From Henricia sp. BOLD:AAB3569 (Eukaryota > Echinodermata > Asteroidea > Spinulosida > Echinasteridae): 64,000 nt of DNA. The position numbers were made by a program, and so were the translations under genes. The DNA is taken from assembly GCA_037783545.1 (NCBI GenBank), contig JBBELK010000522.1, positions 186,001-250,000 on the forward strand, written 5' to 3'. The notes under the pieces were generated by a model that saw only the letters and a program-made list of their open reading frames with translations, was not told the DNA's origin and searched no databases. Of the stretch, positions 733 through 58,700 are shown piece after piece. The stretch's first letter is position 1. Every line of letters begins with the position of its first letter.

Positions 733-1308
733 GGCCCCGTTTACACTCGATCCGCAATTTCCAAAAACGCGAGTTAAAGCCGGGTAGGCGATAAGTGTAA
801 ACGCAAAAGGTGAATTGAAAAAGGCGGATCAGACCCGGGTCTGATTTGCCTTTTTCAAGTCACCTTTGGGGTAGGGTTGAACCCCGCAATTGTCAAGGTC
901 GCTTGTAGTGTAAACGCTACCCGAATACAGATTCGGTAATTTGAGTGTCCTTGGGGCGGTACCCGCCGTGTGGTAGATTTAATTGACCAATCTGAGCTGT
1001 AGTTACAATTAGTGGTGACTTTTGTGGTTTCTGAAGGCGAGTTGAAGCTGGATCGAGGTGTAGTGTAAACGCTACCCGAATACAGATTCGGTAATTTGAG
1101 TGTCCTTGGGGCGGTACCCGCCGTGTGGTAGATTTAATTGACCAATCTGAGCTGTAGTTACAATTAGTGGTGACTTTTGTGGTTTCTGAAGGCGAGTTGA
1201 AGCTGGATCGAGGTGTAGTGTAAACGTGGCAAATGTTCATTTTTGTGGTCACAATAAAAATACCGGGTCTGTATCGACCTTTGGCGGTGCGAGTATAAAC
1301 ACGGTGTA
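733..1308. mobile_element. Non-autonomous DNA element with GTTTACACTCG ends
   Basis: The ends read GGCCCCGTTTACACTCGATC at the left and, on the complement, ACACCGTGTTTATACTCGC at the right. An inverted copy with the same end words and interior (GGGTCTGATCCGCC, CCCCAAGGACACTCAAATT) lies at 26824-27327. No transposase is present. The minus-strand open frame at 917-1318 is an artefact of the internal duplication. Confidence 0.7.
906..1215. repeat. Perfect 155 bp tandem duplication
   Basis: TAGTGTAAAC recurs at 906, 1061 and 1216. The two 155 bp units between these points look identical base for base. The other family copy (26824-27327) has only one unit, so the duplication is local and recent, or is an assembly artefact. 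Confidence 0.85.
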
Positions 1309-1392
1309 TGCTCCCCAAAAATGCAACAGTTGCACAATAATAGAAATCGAAAATAATAGAAAATTTTGATTTTCAATACTTGACCAGCTTAC

Positions 1393-6000: not shown

Positions 6001-9000
6001 GTTGAAAGTCCCATTGCTTTGTGCGTTGTGTGTCGCCATTTTTGACGATAGCGTGTGAGCCATAGCAACAATGTCCAAGGGGGCGGGGTTAACTTGGCAA
6101 AATCGGAACTACATGTATGCATTCAATCCCAAGCTACGGTACCTCACAAAAGGATCTCAAAACTAAACCAATAGGCACCACTTTTGCTGCAAAGAGGAGA
6201 CCAATAGACCTGAAACGTAATGACGTCACGCAATGTTTACCGCGGTGCATTATGGGTGAAAAATGGGGACGAAATCTCTGCATCTCTAGTTTGCGTGCGT
6301 TGCTTGCATAGCGCTATAGCGTATTATGCACGTAACTTTGTGAACTTTACTAACCGCTTCGCTGGCAAAAAAACGTTAAAAACAAAGATCGTAAATTTCT
6401 AAAATGGTTCGTGTCAACTTAGTTTTAAGCCCACGACAGACACCGGAACTATGGTTTTAACTTTGAAGGCCTCAAAAGGCGGCGAAAATGGCCCTGCAAT
6501 AATTGTGCAAACTAGCGATGCAGAGATTTCATCCCCACATTTCACCCATAATGCACCGCGGTAAACATTGCGTGACGTCATTATGTCATACATGTAGGTC
6601 TATTGCTCTGTGCATGCACGACTGTAAATTTGTCTACAATTTTTTTGGAGGTGTGCACAACACATGGAAGTGAATCTTGTCTGGGTGTATTGTCTATTGT
6701 AAAGGCATTAACAGCAACTTAATGGGGAAAATCTACAAAAAAGTTTAATAATTGTGACAAAATCAGCAATACTGTAATGGTACACAGCACCTCACTCCAC
6801 ATAATGAATAATGTACAAGTTACATGTAAGTACAGTGTAAACTTAAAGGGCCCATGACATGCTAAACAACTTCATGCCTATTCTTTGCTGTATATGATGG
6901 ATTACTTGTTTAGCAAGACATTACATGTACCGGTACTATTGTTCGTTTTGATGTAAAATCAATAAAAGGTAGTCATTTTCAACTAAATCACAGAAAAAGT
7001 GCAGTTTGGAGTGCATTATTTCAGGAAGACACAAGGGAAAAGTAAAACAAAAACAAGTTGGAGTTATGGCAAATTGCTGCAGTTTCCACCCCCAGCAGTT
7101 TTGTCATGGCTTAAGTTACAGAAGTTTAAGAAAAAAAGTGGAATCTTTTGTTTACAGTTGAATGTGATTTTCCTGTGTTTGCTTCTTGTGACATCACAAC
7201 CTTGGTCATGAATATGCATATTAAATTAACATAAAAGTTTAAAACCTCTGTTTTACCCCTAGGATTTTTATGGCTGTAACTGAGTAGAGTAGTTTCATAG
7301 CATACATTAGATTTCACTCCTGAAGACGAACAGAGCACGCTGTTTGAAACGTTGAGTTTACACTCACCGGTTCTTTTCAGAACCACACATACTATACAAA
7401 TGAGATTCACATGGTGCTACCGTAAACCCATACACACATAGATTTCATTGATAAAAATCTCAAATCATGGCGTGTGAAAGAATTAGCCTTACATGTAACT
7501 GTGGCATGCAGAATGTCAAGTGAAATGTCAAGTATACAAATCTTCAAAGTGTGTTTGGTGTGTTGAAGCTGCAATATCACTAAAGTTGATATTTTATAAA
7601 AACATTCACATAAATGTGTACATTTAAACCTACCGTACTGTGTACACTAAAGCTGGTAATCTCCAGTCTTTTAGTCACAACATGGCGGAGTACATAGTAT
7701 AATGAATATGGACCCAGCAATGTGGGTGTGTTGGAGTTCAGCATCCTTTTTCTCATACCCGGAGTTTGAAACATTTTACAATGTAGAATTTCAAGTGTCA
7801 AATCTGCAAATTGTAAAAAGCACAATTTACTGCCACTGGATAAGTTTAATGCTGGTACATTTGTATCAACAGCACTTTTACCAACTTGCTGTGTCCGCAT
7901 TGGACTTTTCGTCTCGGGAAAAGTTACCTGGGAACTTTTCCTGGGCAGCAGTTGGCCAGGAAAGGTAACCGCTGGGCTCGGGAAAAGTTCCTGAGATGAA
8001 AACGTCCTGGGCTGTCCGCATTGGCATGATTGGACTTAATATGGAAAAAGTACTTATCGTCTTTGTAAGTTTGACCAAAAAAAGTCCAATGCGGACAGGC
8101 CATATTTTTGTGAACAGTGTACATGTACATATGCGCGAGTCATTTGGAAAATTTAATTTCGAATCAAATTTTGATATTGTGCTGCATGATCATGGAAATA
8201 CAGATTCAGGACATTTTAATCAGTTCACACAAGTATGTAGACGTATGCAATTGTACATACATGTATGCACAGGCATGACAGGGTTATAGCACGTACGGTA
8301 AGCTCTTGCACACAATAACGTTTTGTTATGGCCAGTTGACTTCTTCATAGAATTGGTTCAATGGTTTTGGAGAAGAAAAAAAAACTGCGTGATGAGCCGC
8401 CCACAGGAGCATTTTCCCCCCTGTGGCGAACGAGTTACAAATGTACATGTACTGTACCGGTACATGTACATTTCTCCTCCCCCCTGTGGCTAACGAGTTA
8501 CATGTACTGTACAGGTACATGTACAATGTATACATACATGTAGGCTCTATACTGGTACATTTAGTGCATTGAACCAACGACTGTGAATAAGTTTACATTT
8601 TGTAGAACTTTACAATGTACATGAAAGCTGAACCTGATGTCCATCAACATTGTACATACAGTGTACATGTATTTGTAGTGTGCTTTACAATTATTATGCT
8701 ACAACCTATAGACCCTTTGCACGGGCAGCCATGACAGGAGGCACTTACATTATCACCGTGCGTCACGCAAGAGTAGGCACTTTGTGGATCTACTGACACA
8801 TCATTTAAATATGAAAATTTGTCCCCTGTCATGGCCTTTTCAGTGCAGAAATTATGTGAAAGTTAATTTCAAAAACTTTCCTGTATAAATGTACATGGTA
8901 CATGTACGTACCACATGTAGGGTACCGGTACACTATAGAAAGTATGTACACGTGTATACATGGTATACTGTACAAATCAATGTACAGTGTATTACCCACA

Positions 9001-31700: not shown

Positions 31701-34700
31701 CAAACCCAATTTTTCCTCTTGATGGGTGTGCAATTGTGCAAAGTAACGTTCGTTGGAGGAAGAGAATGCAGACTAAATTACACAGTGTACAAGTGCAATG
31801 AATGTTGATGTGATCTTTTGACCAGAGTTGGGTTCCATGTGATGTCAGTACTACATGTACAGTTGTATGTCAACATACGGTAGACCCTGTTCTCACTAGA
31901 GAAATCGCTTTGTTCATCGAAGATTATCATTAGTTAATGGAGTGCGCGTTCATATCTCACTTAATAAAGATCGAACGAAGAGCGGTACCGTTAACATTAG
32001 GCGGCCACTAATGAAAATCGAATGAAATTGTGGGATGCCACTATGCCTGGCCGCACATGCGCGTTGAGTGTCAAATGTCGAGCTGCTGCACTGTGTGGTT
32101 TTCAAATGGTGCATCAAAAAACAATGCTTGCTAGGCGCTTGATGCACGATGCACTTGTGGAACCAGGGGCCAATTTCATGGCGTTGCTTAGCACAACAAT
32201 TTGCTCAGCACAGGATTTGTTTGCTTTATTTTGTAAAAATGGATTGCCAGCCAAAATCGTAAGTGATGTGTATTGAAAGGTATTCTTCTACTCTTGCGAA
32301 GAACACAAGTTGGTGTATAATTTTGGCTTGTAATCCATTTTATAAAGCAAATAAATCCTGTGCTTAGCAAATTTTTGTGCTAAGCAACGCCATGAAATTG
32401 GCCCCAGGCCTGCCAAATCGCTTCGTCGAACCAAGGGAGCGTTCACATTAAAAATTGGATCTGTTGAATTAAGCTGATTTTATATCTTTGAATGAAGCTG
32501 ATTTGCTTCGTCAAACGAAGAGATTCTAATTAGGAAAACTCTTCGTCAAATAATTGTTGAATCTTCGTCGAACAAAGTGTTTTTTAGGGAGAATGGGGGT
32601 CATAGACAGGAATCTTGTAGTTTGTATGTGATATAGTTGGACATTCTCCACCCTTGAAATTTTTCCCCCATAGTCGGGTATCTATGGGGGACCCCCCGTG
32701 CACCCCCCCCAGTACTAACCCAAACCAACTTTTTCTGGTGCTATTTAGTGTCCTAAAACACAATTTGGATGTTAACAGTGAAAAAAACCCGATGCACTCG
32801 GGATATCCAAGATGGCGGCCAATATGGCCGCCAAAAATGGCCAAAAATTGAAAAAGTCATATATCAGCCAAATAATATGATAAAAACATAACTAAATAGG
32901 TTAGTTATATGTTTTTCACCCTCCCAAATCCATTTCTGGTGTCCTTCTTCTGCTATCTTGCTTCAAACTCAACATGGCGACCAATATGGCTGCCAAAAGT
33001 GGCCAAATCTGAGGAAATTAACAATATATATCGGCCAAAAATGTGATGAGCGCATAAATCAGATGATTAAATATGGTTTTGATTTTTACAAATTCATTTG
33101 AGTCATTTTTGTTGTTCTATCATGCTTCAAACAAAATAATGGCCGTTATGGCCACCAAAAATTATATTCCAAGTTATCCACAAGCAACTATAATATTACA
33201 GTATCATTTTGTAAATTAGATGTTATAGGCCTACATAATGTAAGGGATGACTGATCACGGTTATAATGATTTGTTCTTGCTGTTCTATAATAGTAATTAT
33301 ATATCTGGTTGTTTTTTTCACTTACTGTGCACATTTAAATTAATTAATTCACGTGACTTGAGCAAAGTCTATCCTTGCTCTTTGTGACTTAAGAAAATGC
33401 TCATAGTAGAGCCAGACTATTTATTAGTAGAGCTTTGATTTGGTAATTTTATTTCAGTTATATTTGTCAATCATTAAAATCAAAAACATTATTTTTATGT
33501 TCCAATAAACAATTATACTTATCCTGCTTAGAAAGGTGGTCTGTCAATGTATTTGCTTTAAATCACTTATGTGGATTACTCACTTGACGTGAACTGTATG
33601 TTGTACGGTACTTCATATACGGTAGTTCACAGTCGCAGGGCATGCATGCTGAGGCAGTGCCTGCACAATCTTTACAGGTAAATGCATTGTGTTTTATAGG
33701 TCCTTTTTTGAATGCCAAATTTGTACAAAACATCCAGATGGTTATATCTTATGTGCCCATTATTGCAAATCAGCAAATTATTATCGATTAATATGGTTGT
33801 AATTTTGGAGAGTGACAAGAAAAGTTTTGGAAAATATTTGCTCTAAAATTAGGAAGAGCTGTGGCCAAATGCACGACAGTTTGCAACAAATGTTTGTACC
33901 GGTGATACACCCACGCTCGATGCTCATCATAGCAGTACATGTTCACGGTTGGTAGACGGGATTTGTTATGTTAATTATTTAAAAAAATGAATGTACGATC
34001 ATAGATTGCAGAAGTGTAATGTTGTTATCATGGTAATTGGCTCCAAACATTCAGCTCTCGGCTAAAGCGTCCATTGACAAAGCACAGGGAGTTTTAGAGT
34101 AGAGCCACTGCCCAGGCAACTAACATAAGATGACATCCACAACTCTATTACATGTGCCCCCACCCCAACCCCCCTGGCCCATAATAAACAGTAAGAAAAA
34201 GCCAAACACCCAGTTCCTGTGTGTGTGCACTTCCACAACCTTTGTGCCCATTACCCAGACTCCGAATTCAGGCCACCCCTTCCCTGAAGTTATGCCCCCT
34301 CATCACTGCCGTTCTCCCAGCCTCAAGCCACCACAGTCACAGCCCCCATCTGCACATGTATTTCATATTTCAGATCAAGTTCTACTGATAGTTTGAGTAG
34401 CGATTTTCTAACCCATTCGTAAACATGCCGAAAAAACGCAAGGAAATCAGCCCACCTGCATCCAGACCAGCAGCAAAGAAGCAAGAACTTTGCATTATTC
34501 ATATTCCTGGAATCAAGCATGGGCCTTTTACTGTCTTGTCAAGTGAACCTAATGAAAGACTTCAAGTGCTTAAAGTACTTCACAATGTACGGGATCGTCG
34601 CATGGCAGAACCTGCCTCATCGACGCACAGAATGCTAGACATTTGCCAAGGAATCCCTGAAGAAGTTAATGACAAACATGGGTACCACCGTGGTTGTTAC

Positions 34701-37700
34701 CAACGGTTTACAAGTAACTTGAATCGTTTAACCAAGCACAGTGAAGAAGTTCCTTCTACTAGTGGAGCATCTATCATTCAAAGCCGCCAAAAACGGAAAC
34801 CAAGTTCGGAACAGATTATATTCAAGCCTGATTGTATTTTTTGCAACAAGACAGGAAGAATTCACCTCAAAAAAGTTGGGGCTGACACTACAGAAGCAAC
34901 TGCTTCATTTGAAAGAGATGGTTGGCAGCACGTTCTACAGGTAGCTGAACAGAACCATCACGAGTGGCTGTTACGAAGAATCAGAGGCTTCGACCTCTTT
35001 GCATGCGAGGCAAAGTATCATCCAAGGTGCCGCAGACAGTATATCGCTAATCCAAAACACTGGAGAAGTGGCAACACTGACGCTTCTGCAGACCAGTCGG
35101 AATTGGAAGCTGCACATAACTACTGTTTCAGACATGTTGCACAGTACATTGACGAGACTGTTCTACATGGCCGCAAAGTTGTCACGTTGTCTTCACTCCG
35201 TCTGATGTATATTGACCAGCTGGATGAGACTAGATTTGCAAATGCAAACTTTCGTTCGGATAGACTTAAACGTAAGCTGGAAAAGCATCCTATCTTGGGC
35301 CCTAAACTTGTGTTTAAAAAAATACAACCACAAAGCAATACCTGGCCTTTCTACTTGGTCTACAGCTCCAGCATCTCTGTTGATGAAGCGGTTACACAGG
35401 CATACCAATTAGCATCCAGGGATGCCATTAAAGATGTGGCAATGCTTCTTCGGGGTGTGATCCAAAAAGCATTTGAAGAGTCTGAGGATCTTCCATGGCC
35501 ACCTACTGCAACTGCTCTAGAGGTGACGGAAGAAATTATACCCGCCACATTGAAACGATTCTTGAGCTTGGTCATATCTGCCGTACCTACAGCCGCTTCC
35601 GACCGGACAGAACGGATAATCTTTTCCATTGGCCAGGACATTTGCAGAGCTGTTACAAATGGAGAATGGAAGCTTCCGAAACACATCCTACTTTGCATGA
35701 CTCTTCGTCATCTCTACCGAAGCAGACAGCTAGTTACCCTCCTTAACAGACTAGGTCACTGTGAGAATTATCTGTTTTCCGTGGAGTTGGAGACTGCAGT
35801 TGCTGTAGCTCTAGAACAGACATCGTCCATTTTAACTCCACGAATTGTGAAAGCACCACAGAATGTCATTTTCCATTCCGAGTGGGATAACTTCAATCAG
35901 CTTTTCACCGGACTCCATGGTAGGCCTGCCTTCAATACTGCAGCTGGTATCATGCTACAGGAAGCTGATAGGTCTGAAGAAAACGCAGCACACAGCAATC
36001 TCGCTACCATCCCCCGAACCAAGGAACGGACCCTCAAACTGAGCACACCACCTCCTTTGCCACCTTTTCATATTTCGAACAGAAAAGGCCCGGATATGGA
36101 GTTGCCCAATGTCAACCAGCCACATGAAAATATGGCTGCTTTTCTGCAAGGATTGATAGTGTATCTCATCTGGGCCTTCTGTCGCAAAGCAAGTAGTACT
36201 GACAAGCAACAAGTGCCGGCTTTTGGGGGATTTATCTCTGCCACCGGGCTTCCTCCAAGTGAACTTACCACTATTGAGTTCTACCCTTCAATTACTGAGC
36301 CGATCACACAAGACGCTGTTGTGAAAGAGTTGCTGCGTCAATGCGAGAAAGCCACAGAGGAAGTCGGACAACGATATACTGTCACTACATTTGACCTCGG
36401 TGTAGTCATGAAAGCCATGCCAATCATATGGAAGAGACCTGCAGAATACAAGAATCACATCATCCTTATTGGTACTTTCCATACTATCATGAACTATATG
36501 AATATGCTTGGGCATAAGATGGCTGGTTCTGGTTATTCTGAACTCATTATTGAGGCAAACCTAACTACCTCTGGATGTCTGAAAGGAGTACTCAATGGAA
36601 AAGCCTACAACAAGTCTCTCTGGTGCCTTAAGGTAGTAAGTGAAGCACTAGAACGACTACTTATTGCAGCCTACATTGGTCAGAGAGATGAATCTACTCA
36701 AAGCTCAACAAATGCCGATGCAGTGGACGCTCTTATACAGCTATGTAATGCAGAGCATCTTGCAGCAGCGCTACAGGATGACGCCATCAACAAGTACCTA
36801 GTTGACTACATGGCCTTCCAGGAGAGAGTTCGGAAAGGAGAACTAGGCAAGACAGCTCAATTCTGGATGTCTTTCTTGGATCATGCTCATCGGGTGTTCA
36901 TGCTACTATATGCAGTCAAGACCAATAACGTCAAGTTGTACCACAAGTGCATGGGCGACATGGCTGACCTATTTTTTGCCTTTGGAGGTATGAATTACTC
37001 CAGATACCTCACCTGGTTCGATGTTTTCCTTACCAACATTGAAGTCAGCCATCCCGGTGCCACTCAGCTCCTGGAAAAGGGAGCTATATCTGTCGCCCGC
37101 TCTAAGATACCTGGTAATCGATGTGCTGTGGATAAGACCATGGAAGAGACTTTCATGAAATTTGCCAAGTCTCGATGTGGTGCTGGAGGAGCAGGGCTTA
37201 CTGGGATTTTAGAGAACTACGGCGCATATCAGCGATGGATTCGCACAACCTCCGAGCGCACCAAGTATTACCAAGCCACTCTTGAGATGACTGGAATGAC
37301 TAATGACACAGATAGTTCTAAGTCTGGCAAGCACCGTGAACAACTACCGTCTGACGTAAAACGAAGTGAAGCTGCAGTACAACGAGCTATGAATGCCATA
37401 CATGGGTTTCTCAACCCATTTGAAGTGGCTGATCGAGACCGCTTGTATATACTGTCATCTGGTAATCCAGTACCAACTGATGTAGAGTATGACGTACTAA
37501 GGGCAGAAGAGGCTGGTCGGTTTGAGAGAGATAACTTTGTCAATGAAAGGCTGGTAAAACATGGCGATAAAGAAGGAAAAGACTTCTTTGACAAAGTGAA
37601 GAAGCTTAAGCTAAAAACCATGGAAAAGGTAAACAAGAAGGTAAAGCTAACAACTGCTCAAGGTAATGTCATCAAGTACCAGGAGCAGGGAGATGTGGCA

Positions 37701-40700
37701 TTCCAAATACTGGTCAAATCACAACTTCTATCTCAACCTGTTGACATTGAGGAGCTAATGACGTATTCGATCACTCCTGTACCACACTGCTTGGGTACGC
37801 CGGATGGCTACATGGCAAAGACCAACAAAGCGGCATCAGTTCATTACCTGACCAGCGAAGTGCCTGATGTTGAACTACCTTCTTCTTGTCCTGGGGAAAC
37901 CCTTTTCATTGAAGATGGTAATGCCCACTTCCATACTTTGAAAGACCTCCCTCCGACATTCAAGGGAATTTGTCTGAAGTTGCTGGATCAACTTTTTCGC
38001 AAGCCAGACGTAGTTTTCTCCACTGATATGTATGTGGAGAACTCCGTCAAAAGTCAAGAAAGGCTACGCCGGGGAAGCAGTACTAAAATCATCCTCGAAG
38101 GGATCAACACAAGAAAGCCAGCAGACTTCAAAGTGTTCCTGCAGAATGATGAAAACAAGAAGCAACTATGCAAGTTCATGCTCCGTATCTGGGGTTGTCC
38201 TGAAGCAGCACATCGACTAGAAGGGAGAAAGGTCATATTAGTAGTTGAGGGTGTTTCGTTTCAACTGTCCTCTCCAGATGGGCAAACAGTGCAGCAAAAG
38301 GAAATCACAGAACTGAGGTCCAACCAAGAAGAGACAGATAGTCGTGTTATCCTCTACCTGCTATACGCAAGGAAACATGGTTACAAACAGGTTGTTGTGC
38401 ATAGTCCAGACAGTGATATCTTCTTCATCCTGTTGCAGTATGCACAGAAGATGAGACCACTGACCGTCCTATTTGATACCGGGAGTGGAGCAAACCGGAG
38501 GCTGTTGAACATCAGTGATATCGCAGAAGACTTGGGGCCCAGATACTGCCAATCGCTAATAGGGATCTACTGCTTTACTGGCGAGGACTGCAACTGTGCC
38601 TTTAGAGGAAAGGGGAAGAAAACCCCTCTGAAAAAACTCGAGAAGAAGCCACGGTACCAAGAGTGCTTTGCCAAATTGGGTGATAGCTGGAAAGTAGATG
38701 AGGAGCTAGTAGGTGAGCTAGAAGAATTTGTATGCTTCCTCTATGGATTCCCCAGGGTCAAGGAAGTTAACACAGTTAGAGCCCTCATGCTAAAGAAGAT
38801 GGTTGGCGTGGATGGGGTCATCAGGACCTCATCTAAAGTTGATCTGTCCAGGCTTCCCCCGTGCAAGCAGTCACTTGTACCACACATCAAGCGTGCCAAC
38901 TACAGGGCAGCGCAGTGGAAAAGATCAGATGTACCTATCCAGGAAATACCAACTCCCACAGAGCATGGCTGGGTCAAATGTGGAGACTTCATTGAACCAG
39001 TGTGGTCAGAAGGTCCTGTCTTGCCATCCCGTCTTGGCGACATCTTGGTTGAGCTCACACAAGAAGAAACGTCAGATGACGAAGATATTGACATCGATGG
39101 AGATGATCTAAACGAATCTGACTGTTCCGGTCTTGACGACTATGACAGTGATTAATGTAAGTGTGTATTAAAGGTATGAAGTCACTATATAAATCGATCT
39201 TTATCCTATTCTTTTATAATAAGTGTGTGCTAAAGGACATAAAATGTATACGTGTCATTTGTTACTGGTACCTACGCCTTTACATGAGATACCTACAGAT
39301 ACCATTTCACACTTTTTGTTGACAGGTATTTTTCTTCTTATGATTTACTCCTTTTAGACCAGTACCACCATCTTAAATATGACACAGAAGAAAGCAGGTA
39401 TGTGAAATGAGTTTCAAATTTACGATCTCAACGTTTATGTATACTTGGCCAATTTACATTTTGCAGCATGTTTAAGTGGTTAAGATGTCTGCCATGTATG
39501 CAGGAAGTGGTGGGTTCAAGTCCTACCCGAGCACGCTATGAGTTTATTGAGTGTTCTCCTGAAAAGCACTTGGTATATTATTTTGCAAATACTGCGTTGT
39601 GATTGGCAAATTACATTTATTTATCATCATATGGACTGACGCAATATTTACCTTATTTTGTCGCATATTTTAAATGCATATGACATGTACTTTTTGTCCA
39701 ATTTGTTCACCCGTATTAGTGACCATCTTGAATTTTATGCAAGTATCCAAAGAACACAGTACTTGAAAAAAATTTGTAAGGATCAAAACCATATTTAATC
39801 AAATGATTTATGCGCTCATCACATTTTTGGCCGATATATATTGTTAATTTCCTCAGATTTGGCCACTTTTGGCAGCCATATTGGTCGCCATGTTGAGTTT
39901 GAAGCAAGATAGCAGAAGAAGGACACCAGAAATGGATTTGGGAGGGTGAAAAACATATAACTAACCTATTTAGTTATGTTTTTATCATATTATTTGGCTG
40001 ATATATGACTTTTTCAATTTTTGGCCATTTTTGGCGGCCATATTGGCCGCCATCTTGGATATCCCGAGTGCATCGGGTTTTTTTCACTGTTAACATCCAA
40101 ATTGTGTTTTAGGACACTAAATAGCACCAGAAAAAGTTGGTTTGGGTTAGTACTGGGGGGGGTGCACGGGGGGTCCCCCATAGATACCCGACTACCATGT
40201 GTGCATCTTCTTGTCAACACGTCAATCCACTACAGCACAAAGCTCATTCAAAACGGCAAAAAGGTTTTAGGCAAGTGTTATCATTTCCGCCAATGGGACT
40301 CCCAACTATAAGTCACTTGCCAAGAGTCCTTACCAATATGTGGCAAGTTATAATCCCTACAGCTTAGTCCTGTGGCACACTCAACAACTTGAGGGAAGCT
40401 ATTTAGACTAGAGCAAACTCCCACAGGAAACTTGCCTTTATTGTGGATGTCTTTACATTGTCAAGTGTTTGGCAGAGATCTGGTGGTAATACCATGGGTT
40501 CCTGATGGCTAGTCGGACAGTCAATTATGGGTCAGATGACTGGACACCGCGTCAGTGTCCAGTCGGAAACTCTGAAGTTAAGCTCGTCTGTCAGCACTCC
40601 ACAGGGTTCATCCTATTAATTTGCAATCTTAGGTCTATAGACAAGTGATTATAAATATCCAGCTTAAAAATTTGCTGCTAACACCGTGTTTACACTGGTC

Positions 40701-43700
40701 CCGAGCTCGGGATCAAGATTAGTCCCCTGATAAGAATGCATCAGTGTTAACCGCAATGATCCTGAGTGCCGCGTTTACATTCTGTAGTTGATCTCAAGCG
40801 AGGTGCCAGAAGTTGCAGTCAAAGGTCATGCTCTGTGTGTATACTGATCAATGTCTGCATGGGTTGTGCATGTACAGTGTACAAGGCCACTTGAATTTCG
40901 CAGGTTTTTCCCCCACTACGCGGCTGTGGAGCAGATGTGGCAGGTTGCGGTAAAGATTAATTGCTTATCTAACCGCAAACTGATCCTGAGCTCGGATCAA
41001 ACTCCCCCGCCAACGCGAGACAAAAATCTTGGGGGTCTGATCCGGGGCCAATTTGGTTCCGAGAGCGTTTACACTCAGTTGTGATCCGGGGCTGATCCCG
41101 AGCTCGGTGTTCGACCCCGAGCTCGGGATCAAGTGTAAACAGGACGTAAGTTTGTTACATGTTGTCGTTTTAGGAGCAGTACAGCAAGGGCAAATGAAGT
41201 TTACAACATATCCAATTTTGGACCAACACGTAAACAAACTGTGAGGTCATTATTAAGGCTGTGCCTACGAATCAAATATTTGATTATTCGGTCGTCCATC
41301 GAATATCCGAATAGCATTTTACCACTCCAAACCAAACATGTCTTTCAGCTAGGAAGAAGTAAAACAAAAACGGTTTCCTTTGCCGAAACGGCTACTTTGA
41401 TGTGTCCAGTGTACAGGAGCTGACGATGATTTCTGTAGATTATGCTTTCAGACCGCAAATTCAGCAATAAAAAGGCTGCTGTATTCCTGTGAGCTGTGTG
41501 TTCGGATGTGCCAAAATCAATTAATTTCACGCCAAACTTTTTTGTCAAAATGTTAGGAAAAAATTCATATATCGAATATTTGATCGAAAATGAAACCGAT
41601 TATTCGAAGAGTAAATTATTCAAAAATACACAGGCCTAGTCATTGTGTTTCATCAGGTCTGTTATAAAAAGAGTTATTTTCTCCCACAGATACTCCAGAC
41701 TATATCGCAACATTTTTCCTCAGCAATCAAAACATTGAAGACATGATTGCAATCGGCCAACAACAGAGATTTTTGGAAAGGGTGAAATTAGTCTGGTCAA
41801 CACAGACTCCTCTAGTCATCCACAAATTGAGGCCGGCGCTAGACACTGATGAAGGCCCCAGACTAACAAATCCGCAGGGGAAAACGGGGTGAGTCACTCA
41901 AAAGAAAGTTAAACGACAAAAAGTTAATAAACATGTTTTAGGTTTTGGCTTCTGTTTGTTGTTCAGTTTGGTTTTTGTAAAATTGTTCTGTCTTGTAATA
42001 TTTTTGTTGAATATTAGTAAACACAAAGTGATTTTGTCCAGGGGCCAATTTCATAAAGCTGTTTAGCAGAAAAATTTGATTAATCAAAAATTTGTTTGCT
42101 TTATAAAAATGGGTTGATAGTCAAAATTGTATGTCAACTTGTGTTTTTAGCAAGAATAGCAGAACACCAATCAATTGTAATGCATATCTCACAAAATTTT
42201 GACTGAAAACTCATTTTTATAAAGCAAAGAAATTTTTGATTAAGCAGATTTTTCTGCTAAACAGCTTTATGAAATTGGCCCTGCTTGAACAAAGTGCTTT
42301 TCAAGTGCTATTCCCATTTCCTGGAGAATCCTGTAATTAAGAGCTCTCGGAAAACCAATTTTGTTGGATTTTCAACCTGATTAAACTTGTGTGGGACAGG
42401 GTTGTCTATCATAAGTCAATCACAAGTCCGTCACAAGTCCAGTAACAAGAAGCAAAGGATGAACACGCACAAAAGAATGGCTTTGTTGGAGTTCATTTAA
42501 AGAGCTTGTGACTTGAATTAAGACCCAGGGACTTGTGAAGGCTCGTGAGGACTTGTGGTGGACTTGTGATGGACTCGACTACAACCCTGGTGTGGGATGA
42601 GCTGACCTCTGGACCTACATGTATGTGTCTCGATGTTAAGGTGGAATACACTTGCAATGTGTGCCCTTGAGCATGGCATCTACCACAATTGCTCCATCCT
42701 TCAGAAGGGATGTAAAGCCGTTGGTCCAGTGTTGTGTAAGTTACTTTAAAGATCCCAAAACACTCTTTCAATCATATACACACTTGGGGATTCTCTAGTG
42801 TCTCTGGCTGTTGGCTGCCAATTGCCCACCTATGTATCTCGATGTTTCATGCAATTCAGCTACGAGCTGCAAAAGGATGTTCCATAAACCTACTATAACG
42901 TGCAGCACACATGAACATATTCACATTAAATGTGCGCTATATCAATGTAATAAATAATATATTTGTTGACATTATTTAATAATTAATCTGCAGAGTGTAC
43001 GTAACTGTTGGTTCTACAATCCCATTCTCCAAAGAGCTACTTGGGGCTTTCGTGGAAGCATCTATAGACTGTGTCAATGGGACCTACATGCCATTCAGAC
43101 TGCCTGAAGCATTCCAACCCGACTTCGAAGTGCAGTGGTGCCATTTGAAATTGGTATATTAGAACTCTTGTAATGATTTTTGTTTGCCCTAATATGTGAC
43201 GTAACTTGATTTACTTGTTATTAAACGGGGAGAACCTTGTTCTCCACGACCTGTTTTGTCAAAGAAGGGTACCATTAGCGCCCTGACAAAAATAATCCAT
43301 TTCCCCCCTCTAAAACACCTCAGAAGTACGGCCGAGTCATTCCAAAATTGGATGTAAAGTCACCAAACATGTTTCCAACAATGTTTGATTATACAAATAA
43401 TGAATGTTTGTGAGTGCAATGTCCAAGCTAATTTTGTGGTTTTAGGTGCGTTGTTTCACCTCAAATTCCTTCCACGAAATTAGCTTGGACAGAAAGTGTT
43501 TTCATAATTCAGTGATTTTCAGTGCATCGTTTCACTCAAAATTTCTTCCACACCGCTTTTTCTCAAAGCGACGCGCGTGGCCATCACGCGTGAAGAGACT
43601 CTGTGTGAATTTGTGTGTGCGAACAGCGCGATGCACGCATCATGGATGCGCGCTGTTCGATTTAACAACAATGGAAAACGCGCAGTCCATGCACTGGAAA

Positions 43701-46700
43701 AAGCTGCATCCTAGCTATGGCGGATGTGTACAGGGAAGGCGTCCTTGGAATGGTCTATTTTGTATCGATTAGCTGCCCTTTTAGGGCGAGTTTAATATTT
43801 AAATTGGTCAACAATGCAAGCAGAAAACCTGCCACCATGCATGCCTTCACGGAACAAAAAAACTGCCCTACAAGATGGCAGCTATTATGATACGGTCTAT
43901 ACAGGTTGGTTTTTATCACACACATCCTCAGTCACACATGGAAATAATGCCGTTTGTAGCAGCTTTCCATCTATACTTTAACCACCTGCCTTTCATCAAT
44001 TCACAATTCCCTTCCCCTTAGGTACAGCAGAGCCAGTCATCTCCCCAGACAGCTAGTCCCAAACCTGTTCCCCTAGGTGATGAGTACATGCCCCCAGCGC
44101 TCTCCACTGAATCCTCCAGTCAACTGCTGGAGTTTCTGCTTATTGTCATTCCGCCGCTCAGCGTGGCTCTCATCCTTGTTGTGGTTTTGGGTTTTCTCAT
44201 GTGCAGTTGTCGAGGCCAATCGTAAGTAGGGGTCAAATGTTTGTTAGATACTATAAAAGGTGGTGCGCGGTAAAATATTAGGGGTCGTCAAAAGTTGTCA
44301 ACATTTCCACAGTTCTACAGAGCGTAGTATTTTTAAAGACTCCCTCCCTCCCCTGAAATACTACTTATGTGAACATTTTACAGTGCATGTAAAGTCATAT
44401 ATGTGGCGCGCATCATACTGCATGTGCGCGCGACCCATAGAGTTAAAAAATGCTTCGCGTTGGAACAGCACATACACAGTACACGGCGCCCATTTTGTAC
44501 CGCCCAAATGAGAACTAACTAAGTAAATAGTTTGCAAACGATCTAAATAATTTTATCCTCATGGATTATTTTCTTGTAAAATTATATCATCTCGGGCGGA
44601 AACATTTCATTGGATAGTTGCTACCAATTCAATCTTTACTCTGAGGAAGGTTTTCCCTGTCAACTCGTTAATTAACGTTTGGGGTAATTGCAAATGATAC
44701 ACTGGGCCTTTAACTCTTTCAGTGCCAGCGATTTTTCAAAATGTACCCCTAAAGTGCCAGACTTCCAACGTTTTTGGTAATTCTTTGAAATTCTGTAAAA
44801 ATATCAATAAATAAGTTATACTCATCAAACTTGTTGTATCTTGGTCTTTGTTATGTCCTCTGCACATATCAGCCTGTTTTGGAGTGGTAGATACTGAAAC
44901 ACTTTCCTTTGCAGAGGGCGATTTGGCACTTTTTGCAGTAAAAAACGCGTATCCCGTTTGACTCTGTGGGCTGCCATCTTTGCAAATGTCGCAAATCCGA
45001 CTCCCGACTCGGAGACATTGCGTACTACGGGGAATCCCCAGGTCGTACGGGAATGAAATTGCACCGTAAGGTAGATGAATACGCCCTTTAGAGATATCTA
45101 GAGCTCGTATAGTTACGGTGTTTGGCGTTTTTGAGAAAACAAATGTTGAAATCCTGATCGTATATTTACGATATTGGCACTTTTGGGGTACATGCGGTAG
45201 ATCGTAAATTTACGTTTTTGCCACTGAAAGAGTTAACTAAAGAAATGGGTAGCAACTGGCAAATTTAGCTAATGTGTGAGTGAAACTTCAAAATAGCCGT
45301 AATCAAAGTAGCAGACCTTGTAACTCAACACCAGTGAATACAAAGTCATCAACTAAAATTGCAACTTTCATTTTATTTCTTCTCTTATCTATCAGGAAAA
45401 ACGTTAGCAGAACAAATGAGTAAGTATACATCTTTATTCATTTTTATAGTTATTTTTTTCATAGAAAATTTTACTTTCTGTTTCAGGCGTACTTTTGCAA
45501 AATCATCTTGTGAGCTTGGCTGCTCGTATTGAATGTGTTAATAGATCCGGAACCAACTTAACACCACTGGTTTCCTGTATACTATCTTGTATTGATGACA
45601 AGCCTCTGTTACACATACCCTGAGGGATAGCGGTATGTTGTGTTCTGGAAATTTTTATTTTTCAAATTACTGTTTTTATCTATTCCTGTGACAAGGTGTG
45701 TCGGTCATGCAGATACAATTGTCTAATCATATACAAATTCATTCAAGCGGAATGCATACCCTCGGTAAAATATCTGCGTACATTCCACAATATCCCTAAC
45801 TTATTGTGAGTAGTGTACATGTATGTCAATACCTCTGTAGGATTTTGTGTGTGTTTTTAAAACCCTGTGCCACAATTGATGACCTGTAACATCACTCTTT
45901 AGCGATGTTATAATTTGATTTTTTTTATGGGGGCGGTTGTAAACTTCCATGGTAGAATTACTAAATACGCAAATCCTTTGAGGACACATGGAGAACTAAT
46001 ATCCCTGTGAAGTGACAGCAGCGACATTGCAAAACTTACAGGTGACACAAACTGTCCATTGAGCTGTGGTAGTTTTAACACGATTATACGCCATAAGGTC
46101 ACAAATAATACAAGTTTTGGAGAATTCACATCGATAATTTGAAATGCATACCAGTAACTTAATACTGGCCCCCTTTACTAATTATAAAATCATAAATTTT
46201 CTTCATGAAACAGCTTTGTCAAAGAATTTAAACAGCTCTTAACTACGGTTTTACGCCATGAGATTCCCATTTTTGGGAACCTGTTAGACCGCCCTCTACT
46301 GACTGTCTCGGGACACGCATACCACGTGCCACTATGACCATTTCCTGAGTGGGGAAGTGCATATCCTTATTAGATATCCTCCCCTTTTGACATTTACAGT
46401 GTCTTTCAAATGTCTCCGATTTTATTCTCGGTGTTTAGAAAGCATAGTGATAAAATACATGTGGGGTAAGATTACATTATGACCAATGTCTGTTCACATT
46501 CACCATCAAATACTGTGGTATACTGCCATGATACAAACAGTGGATTTCTGAAGAGTTTCTTTATGAAGTCCTAGAACAGTGGCATTGCATGTCGAAGGAG
46601 GAATTTTGCAAACTAGCCTACAGAATTCCCCTTAAAATCAAACTTTGCGTACAGATTATGACTCAACAGTTGCCGTCTCCAAGCATGTAAAAAATGCACA

Positions 46701-49700
46701 GCCAAGCAGAACTTGTCTGCTGTACCTTTATCGCGCCGTAGCCATCTTGTTTTGTTTCCCATAGTTTGAGTCATTATGTGTCATTGTGATTCTAATAACT
46801 TCGAAATGGGGCCAAACTATTTTTTCCCTGCAAGCCTTGATGTTGATTTGGTTACGTTGATTTAAATAGGGAAGCAGGGAAGATGGCCGTACCATGATTA
46901 AAGTTAATAGCAATAGACTACTAAAGTGAAAACGTCACCCTTTGTGTGTTGCCATGGATTTTGGGTCTACACTAAAACCAGTGAACTGTTTCCCTGCGCT
47001 ATACCAATGGACGTTTCAGATTACCAGCGAATGTTTAGACCCAATTACCATGGCAACTGACGTCACAGTCTATTAGTAGGGGGTGGTGTTAGTACCAACT
47101 TCTTTATATACCCCTCTTAGAATATGGAGATGTTCAATATGAACGAGAAAATACCAATGAAAAACTGTTTAGTCAAGCCTAACCCCCCTGTACATATCCC
47201 CTGAAGTTTGCACCTCCCATACCAAAAATGAGCGTTTTTAAAATTCAAAATCGCCTCACAATATTGGTAAAGACCTGGAATACAGTAAAGAAACTCAATA
47301 TCAATGATATTAAATTTATTAGAGACAAATGATAATACACATCATGCACACCAAGACCACTTTCAAACAGTACATATATGTACAGGGGGGTTGTAACGAT
47401 ACCACGGGCCAAATGTTGGTGTTTCCAGATTCAGGTAAGCCTAGACCATAATATTAGGGGGTACTGCTTCGATACAAAAACTTTTGCGAAATAACACCAC
47501 CCCCTACTATTAGCAAGCGTGCTTTTGAATTAATGCTTAAGCAGTGCAATGTCATTAGATCCTGAATAACTTCTGAAAATTCTCAATATTGTATGTTGTG
47601 TTAAATGAACGAAATTTTGAGGTACACTGCTTTAAAAGCAGTCATTAGTTTTTCATGAATAATAGTTAACTGGCAGTTTAACAGAAATTCAGCAAATTGG
47701 CTTCGATAAGGCCATTTCCATGCTGAGTGGTGTGACATTTGAAGCAGCTGACCCATTAAGTCACAGTGTGTGATTAGGCATTTTAAATAAAACATTAGCG
47801 CAAATAATCTCTAAAACAAAAGAATCTCACAGAACTCATTCATAATATTTTACAATATTGTGCTATCACAAATCAAAAACTGATTTTTTTCTCTCTTCAT
47901 ATTAGTCAAAACCTGGGGACATATTCACTTATTCAATCTAGGCTGGGTGCTTAATCTCTCCCAAATCTAAGCATCCAACTACATGTATGTTTAAGCACAT
48001 AATACGGCATAGTTTGACATTTTTGTAATCAATACATTCAACGTTTTAAGGCCTTTAGTCGATAATTTTATGAAACTGCTTGTGGTAGCCACTGACCTTT
48101 GTAGATAATTACATCTTTGAATCACTGAAGAGGCCTCGAAGTAGAGGCAACAATTTTGGAGAAAGAATTATCTACAAAGGTCTGTGGCTACCATAAGCAA
48201 TTTCATAAAATTTGACATTTATATCACTCACTAGCCTTGTCAAAGGTTGTGAGCTTACCGTGCCGGCGATGGCCAAGCCGTGGAGAAAGGCCCAAGGAAA
48301 ACCAGGCCAACCCGGTGCAGTTGCAATGACCGTGCATTGCGAATAGTGCCCAAAAGTGAATAAATAGACTGGTTCCCGGAATCTCTTGGTCTAAAAACCA
48401 GACTACCCAAAATAGTCTAAAGCACAGCCTTTTTCCAACTCCACACGGCGCAGTTATGTGTTTCATTTAATACATTTGTGTTAGAAATCCGGAATCTCTT
48501 AAGTGTGTTACACAATTAACACACTGGATCAATGGCTTACATCCCTTCCGGAGAAAGGAGCATGTGTGTTTAAGTGCCTTGCTCAAGGGCACAGATACCA
48601 CGGCCGGGTATCGAACCCGCAACCCCAAGTTTTTACCCGAGTGTTTTGCGAGCCAGTGACCCAAACCACTCGGCCACGGTACCCCAAACCGCTCGGCCAC
48701 GGTACCCCAAACCGCTCGGCCACGGTACCCCAAACCGCTCGGCCACGGTACCCCAAACCGCTCGGCCACGGTACCCCAAACCGCTCGGCCACGGTACCCC
48801 AAACCGCTCGGTACCCCAAACCACTCGGCCACGGTACCCCAAACCACTCGGCCACGGTACCCCAAACCACTCGGCCACGGTACCCCAAGTTGACTCTGAT
48901 GTACATGTACTCCTGTCTGTTTCTCCATTTTTCTAAATGTTTCATTTGTGAGTTGTTTTTGATGTCTGTAATTTGCATTGACAATTATTGACGTTTTGCA
49001 CTGATAATGTGTTTTCTTCACTGCACACCAATAAAAAGACCGACACACTTCAGGTTAGTGTAATGGTTTTCAGAAAACTTTGCATGGTTTATGGCATTCG
49101 TGATCATTATTTTAACTTTGACTCAGTTTTGAATTTGGGTCTTTTTCGTGTATAGATCTCCTCAGTTTGTGATTGAGATATTTTCCTAAAAATGCTTTTG
49201 TTTTCTCAAAACAGAAGAAATAGCTGTACTTTGTTCCAAAGAGGTAACTTTAGCCTAGAAAATGCAACAAACATTCTGACAGTATGTATTTCTAAAACCT
49301 CCCTGTTCAAATTTGCCATTTAACTTGCGTAACAGGACAAAGATGTCACACAAGGACAGCTCAAATATTATGAAAACTATATGATACCAATACATGTCCA
49401 ACTGTTTGTTAATTTTTTTTAAATGTTCTACACTACTTAGATTGCACAGGAATTACTTTTACTAAAATAGATAACTTGAAAAAGCAATTTTTTGAAATGT
49501 TTCAAAATGTCACACGTCGGCCCCCATTATATGGAAGGACCCACTGCATTTCAAAGTGAAGAGGTCGGAGAACCCTAGCCCTATGTGGATGGGTTACACG
49601 TACAAGGCTTGTGGCATTTAGCCGTAAAAAAAAGACAAATATTTGACCAGCTTCCTACACCAAACTGGCAGTTTTCAACGTCATTTGTTTTCACTTGTCG

Positions 49701-52700
49701 ATCTTAAAGGCACAGGCTCGTCGGCAATGCGCTCGTGCCAAATTCGTGCCATGAAATACACAGCTCCATAGCAAATGCAAGTAGCTGCGTAATTCATGGC
49801 ACGAATTTGACGTGCGCGAATTGCTGACGAGCCTCTGCCTTTGATTGCTTTCTCAAACAGACGTCCTGAAAAAGCAATTGGATTTAGGCTTGAGACCTCG
49901 AGGGGAAAAAGTGTTTTTACTGAAACCCCTCATTGACAATCCATTGTTTGAATGTCTTGTTTTTTTTGTGTAATCAAAATGTTCTTTCCTTTATAATTTA
50001 TGTTTTGTGTTGTATCGTTTGTCTTTAGTTTTTGTTTTTTTTACCATTTTGTTATATTTGTATCATGTTTTGTCATGTTTTATGTTTTCTTAGATTTGAC
50101 AGTGTACCAGGAAATATTTTTGTTTAATAATTTAGTTACTTCCTTCCTTTGTAAAACTGTGTCTCTTTTACAAACAGTCATTATTTTCATTTCATTTTTT
50201 TGTTTAGTATTTGAAATGTGACCTGCTAATTTCCTGTTCTCTGAGTGTACAGATTTAAATACAGGCTTTGTTTACGTTTGGTTGAAAAATTAATGCATTT
50301 CAATTAATCCCAATCTGTTTTTCAGATAATTTTAGATTGCAAATGAAAGGAAATGTCATTTCTTGTTTGTTAAATTTTATTTAGAAAAGTTAAAAACACT
50401 TTCTCCAAATTCTACATGTTTAATAAAGGTTGGGTTATTTTGGGTGATAAATAGTACAGCATATAAGGATTTCTTGTTTTCAACATGTGTAGTTAACACA
50501 CATTTTAGTTTAACAATAACCATGTAGGGCAAATTCTTCTAGGGGCAGTGAATACAACAGTATCTACTTTACACAGTACAAGTTGTTTTAGTTTATACGA
50601 GACTGGAGATTTATTCATTTGGTGAAATGTAACCCACTCTGCGCAGGCTAGGTCGAGTTTTTACGACCATAAGAACAAATCTGTGTCAGATCCACACTCA
50701 TTAAAATACAAAAACGTGTACAGTGTGCATATGTAACTTGTACACAATCTTACAAAGATAGGCAACATGTTTAAAGATAGTATACATGATTGGTAAACTG
50801 TTACAAATAGTTTTATCCTCCTGTGTGATTGAAGATATGCATGATTAAAACCAACCTGAGCAAAAACCAGCTCAGTACTTAGTCTAACTTTTGAGAAAAC
50901 AGTCAAAAAAGGGTTTGCAGTAATTTCGCCCCAAAACCACTTCGCCTTGAACCATTTCGTCCTGAACCACGGTCTGTGCACGCAGTGGTTTTGGGGCGAA
51001 GTGGCATTTGGACGATGTAGTATTTGGACGAAGTAATTTGGGGCAAAATGGCACTCGGGTGAAGTGGTTTGGGGCGAAATGGCACTTGGGCGAAATGGTT
51101 TTGGGGCGAATTTAATTTTCGTCTCATGAGACGAAAACTAATTGTTTTACTCATTTCTCAAAGACTATAGCACTTCAGACAAAACCATTTCAGGGGAAGT
51201 TTTCTACGGTCATCATGTTTATATTGTGTAAGTTAGGCGTAAATCTGAGAACATTTCTGATTTTCGAGATTACCAATGATGTATACTGCCTTTAAAGTGA
51301 GGACTAAACAGCACAAAACAGTTTCCCCCCCATCCCCCATATTAAATGGTGGATATTCGCTGGCGGAGTCGTGATGTCACCCCGAGGTCAACCAGCCGCA
51401 ACCATAGTGACTGGTTCACACGTGCCGTGCGCGTGGTTCATACATGTAGACAGTACACGTCACACAGCCACAGGTATGCCGGTGTTGAATCATGGCCATG
51501 ATGGCAGTGACATTCGTATGGAATAATGTTGTTTTCAAGGCTATCCAAAAGCAGTTAGCAGGGGAGAAATCGCAATGAAATCAAAATAATGTTCAGAGAA
51601 TTTTGTATGATCCCTGGGAGTCGTAAAATCCAGTCAAAAAATGGAAACTTAAATGTATCTATTGAGGGGAGTCCATCATGTCTGTGCAGCGCATAATTCA
51701 TCTGAATTTTGCATAGGGGTCTAAGTGAATGACATTTCTTGTAATTTTACCGAAAAAAATAAATGCATTTATGACTTTCACTTGTATGACTACAACCTGC
51801 TGCAGACCAGTTCACCATCTTTTGCCTTTATTTTTATGTAAATTTGCCACTATCGCGAGTTGAAAGTCGGTACTTTTCGTGCTCCGTGTTTTGTGTTTGA
51901 TCAAACTGGTTATTATAGGGAGTGCACGTGAACCATTGCCAAGGCCACATGCGTGACCTGGGCAGAAGCTGTCGTCACACTCTGCCAGCGAATACGGAGG
52001 AGTTTCTAGCTTGCTTTTTGATTTATAGACCTTTTAATTATGCTTATGATGTCATCTCAGGGGGGCAAGACTTTGTTCGCTGAGGCACCTCTGTTCATAG
52101 CCTTATCATAGCCTTTTGCGTGTTTCGCATGAATAGCATCTAGTGTACTGACGTACTTCATTTCACAACCACACAGTATCCACTTCACCATACTAAATTT
52201 TTGTTGCTGTGTGGTGCACGTGGCAGGTGTGAAGTACAGAATCAATACTGTGTTCACCGTAGGAGAGAATGGCATAAAGCAACCAGATCGTTGATTGATA
52301 GGCAATGTCATGCACTACGTAGCAACAATGGCATAGTATGTGACTTTCTAAACTGCACCTCCATTTCAAAGTGAAGAATTCGGGGCACCATCCATTATGG
52401 AAATGTTACATGCAAAAGACTAATTGAAATGATACAACTACCCTATAGCCTTTTTCAAAAGTTGATTTGATGACTTACATGTACGTTTTGGCCTTTGACC
52501 TCCGCCCTCCCCTCCCTGCAGAGTACAGCTGACCCATCACCAAGGTATCCGTCAGGCCAGTCGTCAACTAAGGGCGCTATCCAATCGTCGGGACAATGCC
52601 CCGTCGTCCTCGCCGACAACTCCAATTATTCCGCACGGCGCCAATCCGGCAGTTAGCAGTGTCCACTCATCACCTCGGCAACACATACGGTATGTTCTGC

Positions 52701-55700: not shown

Positions 55701-58700
55701 ACATGCACTATTAATTCACATAGACTTCAGTCCAACATCATTGAAAATCCCAACGACATCCTTTAGGCAGTATTCACCATGAACAATCATCTTGCAGTAA
55801 TTGGCATCGTTCGCTGACCTCATAACGTTGAGGAACCTTTCTCCAGATACCACCTGTTTTCCTGTCTCCGTTTGATACATCCTGCCAAGTTTCACTGGGT
55901 ACGCGGACAGCAGCATAACCCCCTTAGGCTTGTGCCTATAGAGTCTCGGAGCCCCAGTGTATACTATAATGGAACTAGTGAATTTTTGGACCATGTCATG
56001 AGGAAACCACGAGTTACTATTTAAGAGGTTCCTGGTCCAGATCTGATTTGATGACTCGATCGCTAAAGGGAATGTTGATCCACAGCTCGGTCTAAAAATA
56101 CATTTATCAGTATAGCTCCTTACAGACGGATTACATGATTGGAAAACTTTTTAAAAAAACAGGAACAACAGCATAACATAACTAAGGAATAATGTTGATA
56201 AACTGCCTTGTAGAAATTTCAGCCACATAGATGCAGTAATACTTCAGAAAACTTTAAAAATCCATGCATGGTTTTAGTGTTGAGTGATGGTAAAAAAGTC
56301 GTCTGCAAACATTTTAAAAATAGCACCTTAAGTTGACAATTTTTCCAACAAAGGTACCAATTTACAAAAACAAAAAATGTGGTGTTTGTTACCATTGCTA
56401 TCAACACTTTTAGTGTGGTTTTTCTTGTCAAAAATTGATTTAGCTTGTGACGGGGAGACTGAATGTTAATTAGGGTTTGTTTTGCCCTTACCTGACGTAA
56501 ATGTTAACACTGTATACTCAGTGCTTTTCCGAGATACTATGAAAAACTTCATAGCATGCTCGGGTGGGACTTGAACCCACGACCTTCTGCAAACAGGGCA
56601 GATGTATTAACCACTCGACCATCGAGCTAGCCGGTGTTGAATGGCCGGTTCGAATCAATTCGCAACGGGGATCGCAATTATTCAGAAATTGATTTAGCTT
56701 GCGTCGGGGAGACTCAATGTTAATTGGGGTTTGTTTTGCCCTTACCCGACAAAATTGTTAACACTCTATACTCAGTGCTTTCCCGAGACACTATGAAAAA
56801 CGTCATAGCATGTTCAAGTGGGTTCGAGTCCCATCTGAGCATGCTATGACGTTTTTTTTTATAGTGTCTCTGGAAAGCACTGAGTATAGAGTGTTAATAA
56901 TTATGTCGGGTAAGGGCAAAACGAACCCTAATTAACATTTTCTAGTCAACATATGAAGTAAAATTTTGGGTCGCTGCAAATGATGCAAAGTTTTTAAACC
57001 TTGATTGTAAAAATACAATCTGAAAGAGAATGAATATTTATAACGGTTGTTTTCGGTCTGGCCTCTAACTTTAGGAATCCAGATGCACTGTCAATGGCAA
57101 GCACCCCGATGTTTAGTCGTACATCGCCGCCTCCATACCGCGCCCCGGCCCAGCAGACCTCCACCCCGGCCCAGCAGACCTCCACCCCCACCACCTAAGG
57201 ATTTCAGGAAACTTGCTTCAGGTGAATGCACAGACCATCAACTGGCTTCAAAAATCCCGTTCTTATTTGGGAAATCGCTTTATTCAATGAAGATTAATTA
57301 ATCATAATTAGTTAATGAAGTGTTCGTTTACATCTCACTTAACGAACATCGGATGAAGAAAGGCAGTTTTACTATTGATTGCTTTCCGTGACGTAGAACA
57401 TCCGGGAATGTTTGGCGGTCATTGATCACGCGTGTACACACGCGCGCCAATAGACGCACATACATGTAGTATGAACACGCGTAAAAAATACTCACCAGCA
57501 TATTTTCATTCAAAGATGCCGCACGCGCGCGCTGTGATACGTTCAAATTATTGAGCATAGACTCCACTTGATCGCGATTTTTAGCCTGAAGAAATACGTT
57601 TTTATCTTTATCGATACAACAGCCATGGGGCAACAACATAAAGCAAGGTTAAGCAACAGAGGCAAGTGCAACCAATGCGTTTTTCTTGCTCTTTTTGCTG
57701 GTTATGAAAAATGACAACCAAAATGGTGGATGGAAGGTGTGACGTCACCGGAAAGCAATCAATAGCCTATATGAATTGATGCCAGTTATAAACTTTTTTT
57801 GCACAAAGACAATCTCGTCAATTTCCCTTTTCTTGAACACAACATCTGGTATGGTGCCTAATCACCATTGAAATGAAACAACTAAACTTGGGATGAGAGA
57901 AAAATTCGAACCCGAGACCTCTGTCTCACCGGGCAGATGTTCTGCCAGCTGAGCTATAAGGCACAGTTGGTATACTCCCTCGGGTTTTCCCTACAGACCA
58001 AATGTTTCTCTCGGCACTGCTACCATGCCCGGTGAATCAGAGGTGTCTTGGGTTCGAATCCAAGGCCCTTACGATTTTTTCTCATATCCCAAGTTTGGCC
58101 TTTTCTTGAAGACATGTTGCATGCCTTATTTCAGTTTCCCCCCATGACCTCCATTTTTTTGAATTTTTGTTGTTTTATGTATTACTAGTGACCCCTTTGA
58201 CAGTCGCGCATCGTTAGAACCTGGAAATGCAAAAGGTAATTAAATTTTCCTGTCTAATTTCTCTATTGATCACGTTCAAATGACGTCACTTCCTACAAAT
58301 TGCCACGTGCATCATGATTTTGAGCGTATTTTTTTGTGACGCGCATCGGTTGCGCCGTATTTCAAACAAATTTCGAGCAACACGCAGGCGTGTTTGGAAC
58401 ATGTTCCAGCGTGTGCGTGCACGTACTTTATGGCGTTTAATATGCAGTAGCTTTTTTTCCTACAAAGATGGCGTCTGTGAACGTGATCAATTCGTCACTG
58501 TCTTTTTCAGTAATTTTTTTTTAGAACTGGACTACTTCCACAATTTCATAATTTTATAACTTTGTATTGCACAAATATTGACGAAAGTTCCGACCAGAGA
58601 GCTTTTGAGACACATCCATGTCTCTTCTTCCAAATTTGGGGCAGTTGGTGACTCACCCCCATCCGGTTCAGTGAATGTTTCAACTTCCTGATGCCAAGAA

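Follow-up and report, generated by a model that had tools for sequence, protein, structure and literature searches.

The analysed stretch of DNA (hereafter the window; 64,000 nucleotides, C522:186001-250000 of the 740.7 Mb assembly used for the genome searches) harbours at positions 32671-40194 an element of 7,524 bp, which is very probably a complete DNA transposon, autonomous and mobile by cut-and-paste, of the AcademX type within the Academ superfamily. The element is bounded by long terminal inverted repeats (TIRs) and a 3-bp target site duplication (TSD), and it encodes a single large protein in an intact frame, which evolves under purifying selection. It occupies one of the two assembled versions of its insertion site and is absent from the other.

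Element anatomy and encoded protein

Inverted-repeat comparison delimits the left TIR at 32671-33094 (forward strand, beginning with TAGTCGGGTATCTATGGGGG) and the right one at 39771-40194 (reverse strand). The two align without gaps over 424 bp with 420/424 identical positions (a repeat search gave 429 nt at 99%), the four mismatches being located at offsets 391, 392, 413 and 414, all within the inner 33 bp, and the outer 391 bp showing no difference. The element is framed by an exact 3-bp TSD, CCA, its left copy (32668-32670) corresponding to the single CCA of the empty site considered below and its right copy (40195-40197) being recognised from the flank comparison; duplications of 2 bp or of 4 to 11 bp gave no match. 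The gene (34425-39155, forward strand), identified by the ORF and protein searches, consists of a single uninterrupted frame of 1,576 codons, free of internal stops in the standard code. An initial annotation of this DNA had described a complete 7.5 kb element at the same coordinates, gapless 424 bp ends with about four mismatches near the inner edge, an unbroken frame of 1,576 codons and a 3 bp target, and in all these respects it proved accurate.

The motif search revealed two occurrences of ATGGCGRCCAATATGG in the left TIR (starts at 32812 and 32974, together spanning 32812-32989 on the forward strand), which are mirrored in the right TIR. This subterminal motif occurs twice per TIR and nowhere else in the element or in the window, and its copies are candidate transposase binding sites. 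The 5′ non-coding region (33095-34424, forward strand) was mostly common only to the second full-length copy, C886, among the 40 of 468 genome search candidates that were scored, the other matches not exceeding 223 bp.

The protein begins with MPKKRKE, which we take to resemble a nuclear-localisation signal. The arrangement CxxC...HxxC (34833-35030, forward strand), formed by C137, C140, H199 and C202, which are kept in 10/10 aligned sequences having that region, suggests an N-terminal zinc-binding domain in the transposase. The central region (residues 600-1042; 36222-37550, forward strand) is strongly conserved in the alignment, includes the invariants D657, H686, D903 and E907, and presumably represents a DDE-type transposase core. 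The window protein has no match in Pfam at E≤10 and no relative in the PDB sequence search; in the PDB profile search, the sole match was to a Cys-rich CXC region (E 0.46) and was contributed by the relatives. Pfam DUF6589 was recorded at E≤1 in 3/16 family members, the window protein not being among them, with the listed scores below the Pfam cut-offs, and our literature search returned nothing linking DUF6589 with transposase. AlphaFold models of two fragments of the window protein, built without an alignment, had mean pLDDT values of 35.7 and 34.9 and were unusable; the fold search with the first model returned no match at E≤0.001. Of the 33 long frames in the window, 10 were compared with Pfam, and none had a match at E≤0.01.

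The C-terminal third likely contains an XPG/FEN1-like nuclease (37890-38700, forward strand), as suggested by ordered acidic motifs and, weakly, by the profile comparison. The motifs, in the order D1164, D1201, E1302/E1303, D1305, D1329/D1331 (SPDSD) and D1388 (TGEDCN...GKGK), are invariant or nearly so in the 16 aligned sequences, and this part of the protein parallels the FEN1 motifs IDGMN, VFDG, EGEAQ, QDYD and GTDYN...GIG. The hhalign comparison with eight archaeal FEN1 sequences gave a weak match (score 23.4, probability 1.5%, P 0.035), with the last two motifs aligned in register. The control scores were 18.7 for the reversed control and 14.4 and 15.9 for other parts of the protein; after column shuffling, 300 controls scored 15.5 on average and 25.8 at most, five of them reaching or exceeding the score obtained. 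None of the 16 members matched Pfam XPG at E≤1. The XPG-like nuclease domain postulated in the initial annotation is therefore favoured by the ordered motifs, but the profile comparison speaks for it only weakly.

We suppose that the single protein would bind the long TIRs via its N-terminal zinc-binding region and the repeated subterminal motif, and would cut both ends of the element, possibly by DDE chemistry. The ends would then be joined to the target across a 3-bp stagger, giving rise to the CCA duplication, and the C-terminal XPG/FEN1-like nuclease would probably trim or cut the second strand or branched intermediates.

Copies, relatives and non-autonomous elements

The genome search revealed one further full-length copy (C886:198854-208168), in which the frame is also open. 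The proteins of the two copies have 95.4% amino-acid identity, with one 1-residue indel and no frameshift. They differ by 88.5 synonymous and 75.5 non-synonymous changes over 1,062 and 3,666 sites, respectively, which corresponds to a dS of 0.088, a dN of 0.021 and a dN/dS of 0.24 (calculated with a custom Nei-Gojobori script). Purifying selection has thus acted on the transposase during most of the period that followed the split of these copies. In the C886 copy, the non-coding part that separates the left TIR from the gene contains an additional 1.9 kb or so, and the flanks of this copy show no clean duplication (TAA / TTT), one end being mutated.

The genome protein search gave 37 matches (30 of the 329 candidates scored), most of them with long open frames. 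They comprise the window copy, the C886 copy (95%), a 42% family (with partial members at 41-43%), a 35% family and several matches at 28-31%. The alignment was built from 16 of these 30 loci, after partial sequences and those nearly identical to others had been set aside. In the FastTree phylogeny of residues 600-1500, the window and C886 copies together with the 42% and 35% families form one clade with a local support of 1.000. Among the five related families with readable ends, four begin with TAG, including three with TAGTCC: the 42% family starts with TAGATCC, and L037/L038 start with TAGTCC at the one end seen. The L018-L021 family has a common boundary without the TAG start, TAGTCC being present just outside this boundary in L020 and L021 and absent in L018 and L019. 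In all four copies that were read at both ends (two families; ends TAGTCCATGGGC), the 3-bp TSDs are exact: AGA and TCG in L014 and L015 of the 35% family, CAT and AAA in L016 and L017 of a 29% family. The viral contigs gave 112 pattern matches and 0 relatives.

A C-terminal Cys-rich zinc finger, which we do not regard as a defining feature, is part of the Academ description, and the window protein lacks it. The last 120 residues contain 9-13 Cys in 8/16 aligned sequences, 3 Cys in the window protein and 1-5 Cys in the window clade as a whole (5 sequences). In addition, 4-6 Cys occur in three sequences of one other family, in which the C terminus is seemingly truncated, and these counts indicate that the loss of the Cys-rich end marks the window clade without being unique to it. 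The Pfam Tesmin/TSO1 CXC (TCR/CXC) domain was recorded at E≤1 in 7/16 members, but not in the window protein, with the listed scores below the cut-offs. In the literature outside the primary Academ papers, we found no description of a missing Cys-rich end.

Many elements without long frames have the same ends as the window element. The initial annotation had proposed to look for other genomic copies by their terminal sequence, and a genome search with the end pattern TAGTCSGGTATCTATGGGGGACCC revealed 183 occurrences (88 forward, 95 reverse; 24 bases with no more than one mismatch). The reversed-pattern control gave 0 occurrences, which excludes chance. Among the 100 places listed there are 37 facing end pairs, 36 of which are spaced by 2.9-4.5 kb and one by 6.95 kb (C406), and these mostly 2.9-4.5 kb pairs look like non-autonomous elements. 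The longest stop-to-stop frame is 106 codons in L047, the only pair for which the full sequence was examined, and no frame of at least 400 codons occurs in the available parts of L005, L007 and L008. An exact 3-bp TSD (ATA, CAG, CAA, ATT, ATA, TAC and CCA) was found in seven of the nine end pairs examined, and no duplication in the other two (C227 and C761). The L047 TIR matches the window TIR at 57/60 positions in the first 60 bp and at about 67-85% deeper in, and L047 has 13 matches of the subterminal motif versus two per window TIR. Since L047 and L007 share 99.4% identity along 1.9 kb, whereas L005 and L008 have only 89-96% identity to L047, the non-autonomous set is of mixed age. From the common ends we infer that the window protein may cross-mobilise these elements.

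Empty site and age of the insertion

The initial annotation regarded the lack of an empty site as evidence against its reading; such a site is present where the locus has been assembled a second time, both flanks being joined there with one CCA and no element (C917:2076881/2076882). To the right of the site, C917:2066000-2071999 is 99.967% identical to window positions 44959-50958 over 6,000 bp, owing to which C917 most likely represents the same locus in another haplotype. The C917 flanks closest to the empty site have 91-98% identity to the window, and farther left C917 is collinear with the window, gapped and 84-98% identical. We read C522 and C917 as most likely being alternative haplotypes of a single locus that include a phase switch, which makes a heterozygous insertion probable. 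Its presence in only one of the two assembled versions of the site suggests that it is probably recent, and the element may be active at present.

It is the empty site, and not the similarity of the TIRs, that constitutes the real evidence for a recent insertion. The TIRs of DNA transposons, unlike LTRs, are not made identical at insertion, and since nothing equalises them at this moment, their similarity is no clock. Moreover, the printed alignment of the C886 copy reveals the same difference at offsets 413-414 (TT left, CC right), which is therefore older than both insertions, which leaves the AG/TT pair at offsets 391-392 as the only one confined to the window copy. With one of the two mismatch pairs being ancestral, we dropped TIR similarity as an age estimate, and the conclusion that the initial annotation drew from the near-identity of the repeats is unsound.

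The empty site would tell nothing about heterozygosity or a recent insertion if C917 were a paralogous segmental duplicate, the element still being an Academ-type insertion. This possibility is suggested by several flank segments that are gapped and only 84-98% identical, which is low for alleles in many animals. We consider it unlikely, since it agrees poorly with the 6,000 bp of near-complete identity and with the collinear order on both sides of the site. In addition, the left-flank search (40 of the 5,451 candidates scored) gave full-length matches only in C522 and C917, the rest being an interspersed repeat, and a highly polymorphic diploid with a partly haplotig assembly would account for both levels of identity. 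A domesticated host gene lying between repeats by chance might also have a long intact frame and be subject to purifying selection. However, this origin of the protein is hardly credible and was rejected: the gene lies within exact TIR and 3-bp TSD bounds and is absent at the empty site, and it belongs to families with dispersed near-identical copies, those examined at both ends having different flanks and their own TSDs.

Comparison with AcademX and other known systems

Since no curated Pfam profile recognises the window protein, one may think of some other superfamily, outside Academ, with the same 3-bp duplication. We regard this as improbable, because the Pfam search up to E 10 gives no match to any other family, and because the 3-bp TSD, the FEN1/XPG-like motifs and the C-terminal Cys-rich domain of the relatives jointly match AcademX. 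The reference for the AcademX lineage of the Academ superfamily is said to be the 2010 work of Kapitonov and Jurka (cited in PMC4455052). The Academ-type assignment made in the initial annotation agrees with the 3-bp TSD and the Academ-like architecture of the protein, and the part of it that relied on the XPG-like domain is weak by profile. The suggestion of an undescribed system is not supported, given the many relatives in the same genome and the match, as far as it extends, to the published AcademX description.

To our knowledge, and within a non-exhaustive literature search, laboratory transposition is not known for any Academ element. The window element is intact, has an empty allele and conserved ends, and is accompanied by many non-autonomous partners, including very young ones, which makes it a good starting point for a functional test. 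Such work could address how a protein that combines a transposase with an XPG/FEN1-like nuclease operates, as well as the question of why nuclease-bearing Academ elements give 3-4 bp duplications and helicase-bearing ones 9-10 bp. As a tentative and rather doubtful possibility, the element may represent a currently active AcademX sub-lineage that lost the C-terminal CXC-like domain and depends instead on its long TIRs, in which the subterminal binding motif is duplicated. This sub-lineage would cross-mobilise a large set of non-autonomous elements of 2.9-4.5 kb, some of them very young, which arose by amplification of the same motifs.

Zator has in common with the window element the 3-bp TSD, but the window protein has no Zator-like or other transposase profile match in Pfam. 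An XPG-like region is, as far as we know, not a Zator feature. In the Academ literature, our search found survey or taxonomy mentions together with a statement on AcademX and AcademH (PMC10045372). According to this source, a 3-bp target duplication is characteristic of Zator, AcademX is distinguished by 3-4 bp duplications tied to the nuclease (Kojima; PMC10045372), and AcademH by 9-10 bp duplications tied to the helicase. A bivalve survey obtained 100 full-length Academ consensus sequences with a mean length of 5,565 bp (PMC10294476), which means that autonomous elements of this superfamily were already known.

AcademH belongs to the same superfamily, but the window element has neither a 9-10 bp duplication nor a Pfam helicase at E≤10, its TSD being 3 bp. 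Duplications in the 3-4 bp range surround the window element, 7/9 of the non-autonomous elements and 4/4 of the related copies, though not the C886 copy. The window clade differs from AcademX in lacking the C-terminal Cys-rich (CXC-like) domain present in 8/16 aligned sequences, and its 424 bp TIRs differ in length from the inverted repeats detected in the relatives L014-L017 (two families, loci that reach both ends), which are 69-106 bp and 26 bp. With AcademX the element shares the 3-bp TSD and a single large protein whose C-terminal part has the XPG/FEN1-like motifs, and, set against the published description, the TSD and the ordered motifs fit AcademX as far as the comparison extends.

Apparent recent activity of the transposon group, and a transposon end with an inverted copy

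The whole Academ-type group to which the element belongs looks recently active in the Henricia genome, since several other families of this group (among loci L011-L038) have copies that are 97-99.97% identical and contain long open frames. The pairs that are alike to both ends may include alleles.

At one locus of the same genome (L078, G000:C133:201760-201910), a transposon end is directly followed by its outermost 26 bp once more, in inverted orientation. The end and this inverted copy have the central TA in common (sequence CCCGACTAGTCGGG), and the similarity ends beyond it. The arrangement may have arisen through a hairpin or as an abortive product, or by insertion of one end against another.

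Flanking repeats and comparison of contigs C522 and C917

The element is placed between two palindromic repeats of approximately 250 bp, one on each side (window 32162-32412 and 42038-42281), and the left one has many copies with 97-99% identity among the genome matches listed. The right flank also harbours a 470-bp repeat (window about 40678-41150), for which dozens of copies with 91-94% identity are present among the matches listed.

When the contig bearing the element (C522) is compared with C917, which carries the empty site and is read as the other haplotype, identity starts at 84-98% and, only a few kb further on, reaches 99.97%. A phase switch or gene conversion would be expected to produce such a jump.

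Other features of the window

On the minus strand, an open frame of 614 codons (window 1249-3093) has no Pfam match at E<=0.01, and a tRNA-Thr gene is located at 56556-56628. In addition, the Rfam Histone3 3' stem-loop is matched at 7364-7408 with 34.6 bits, slightly over the 34-bit cut-off, which suggests that the 3' end of a histone mRNA lies nearby.
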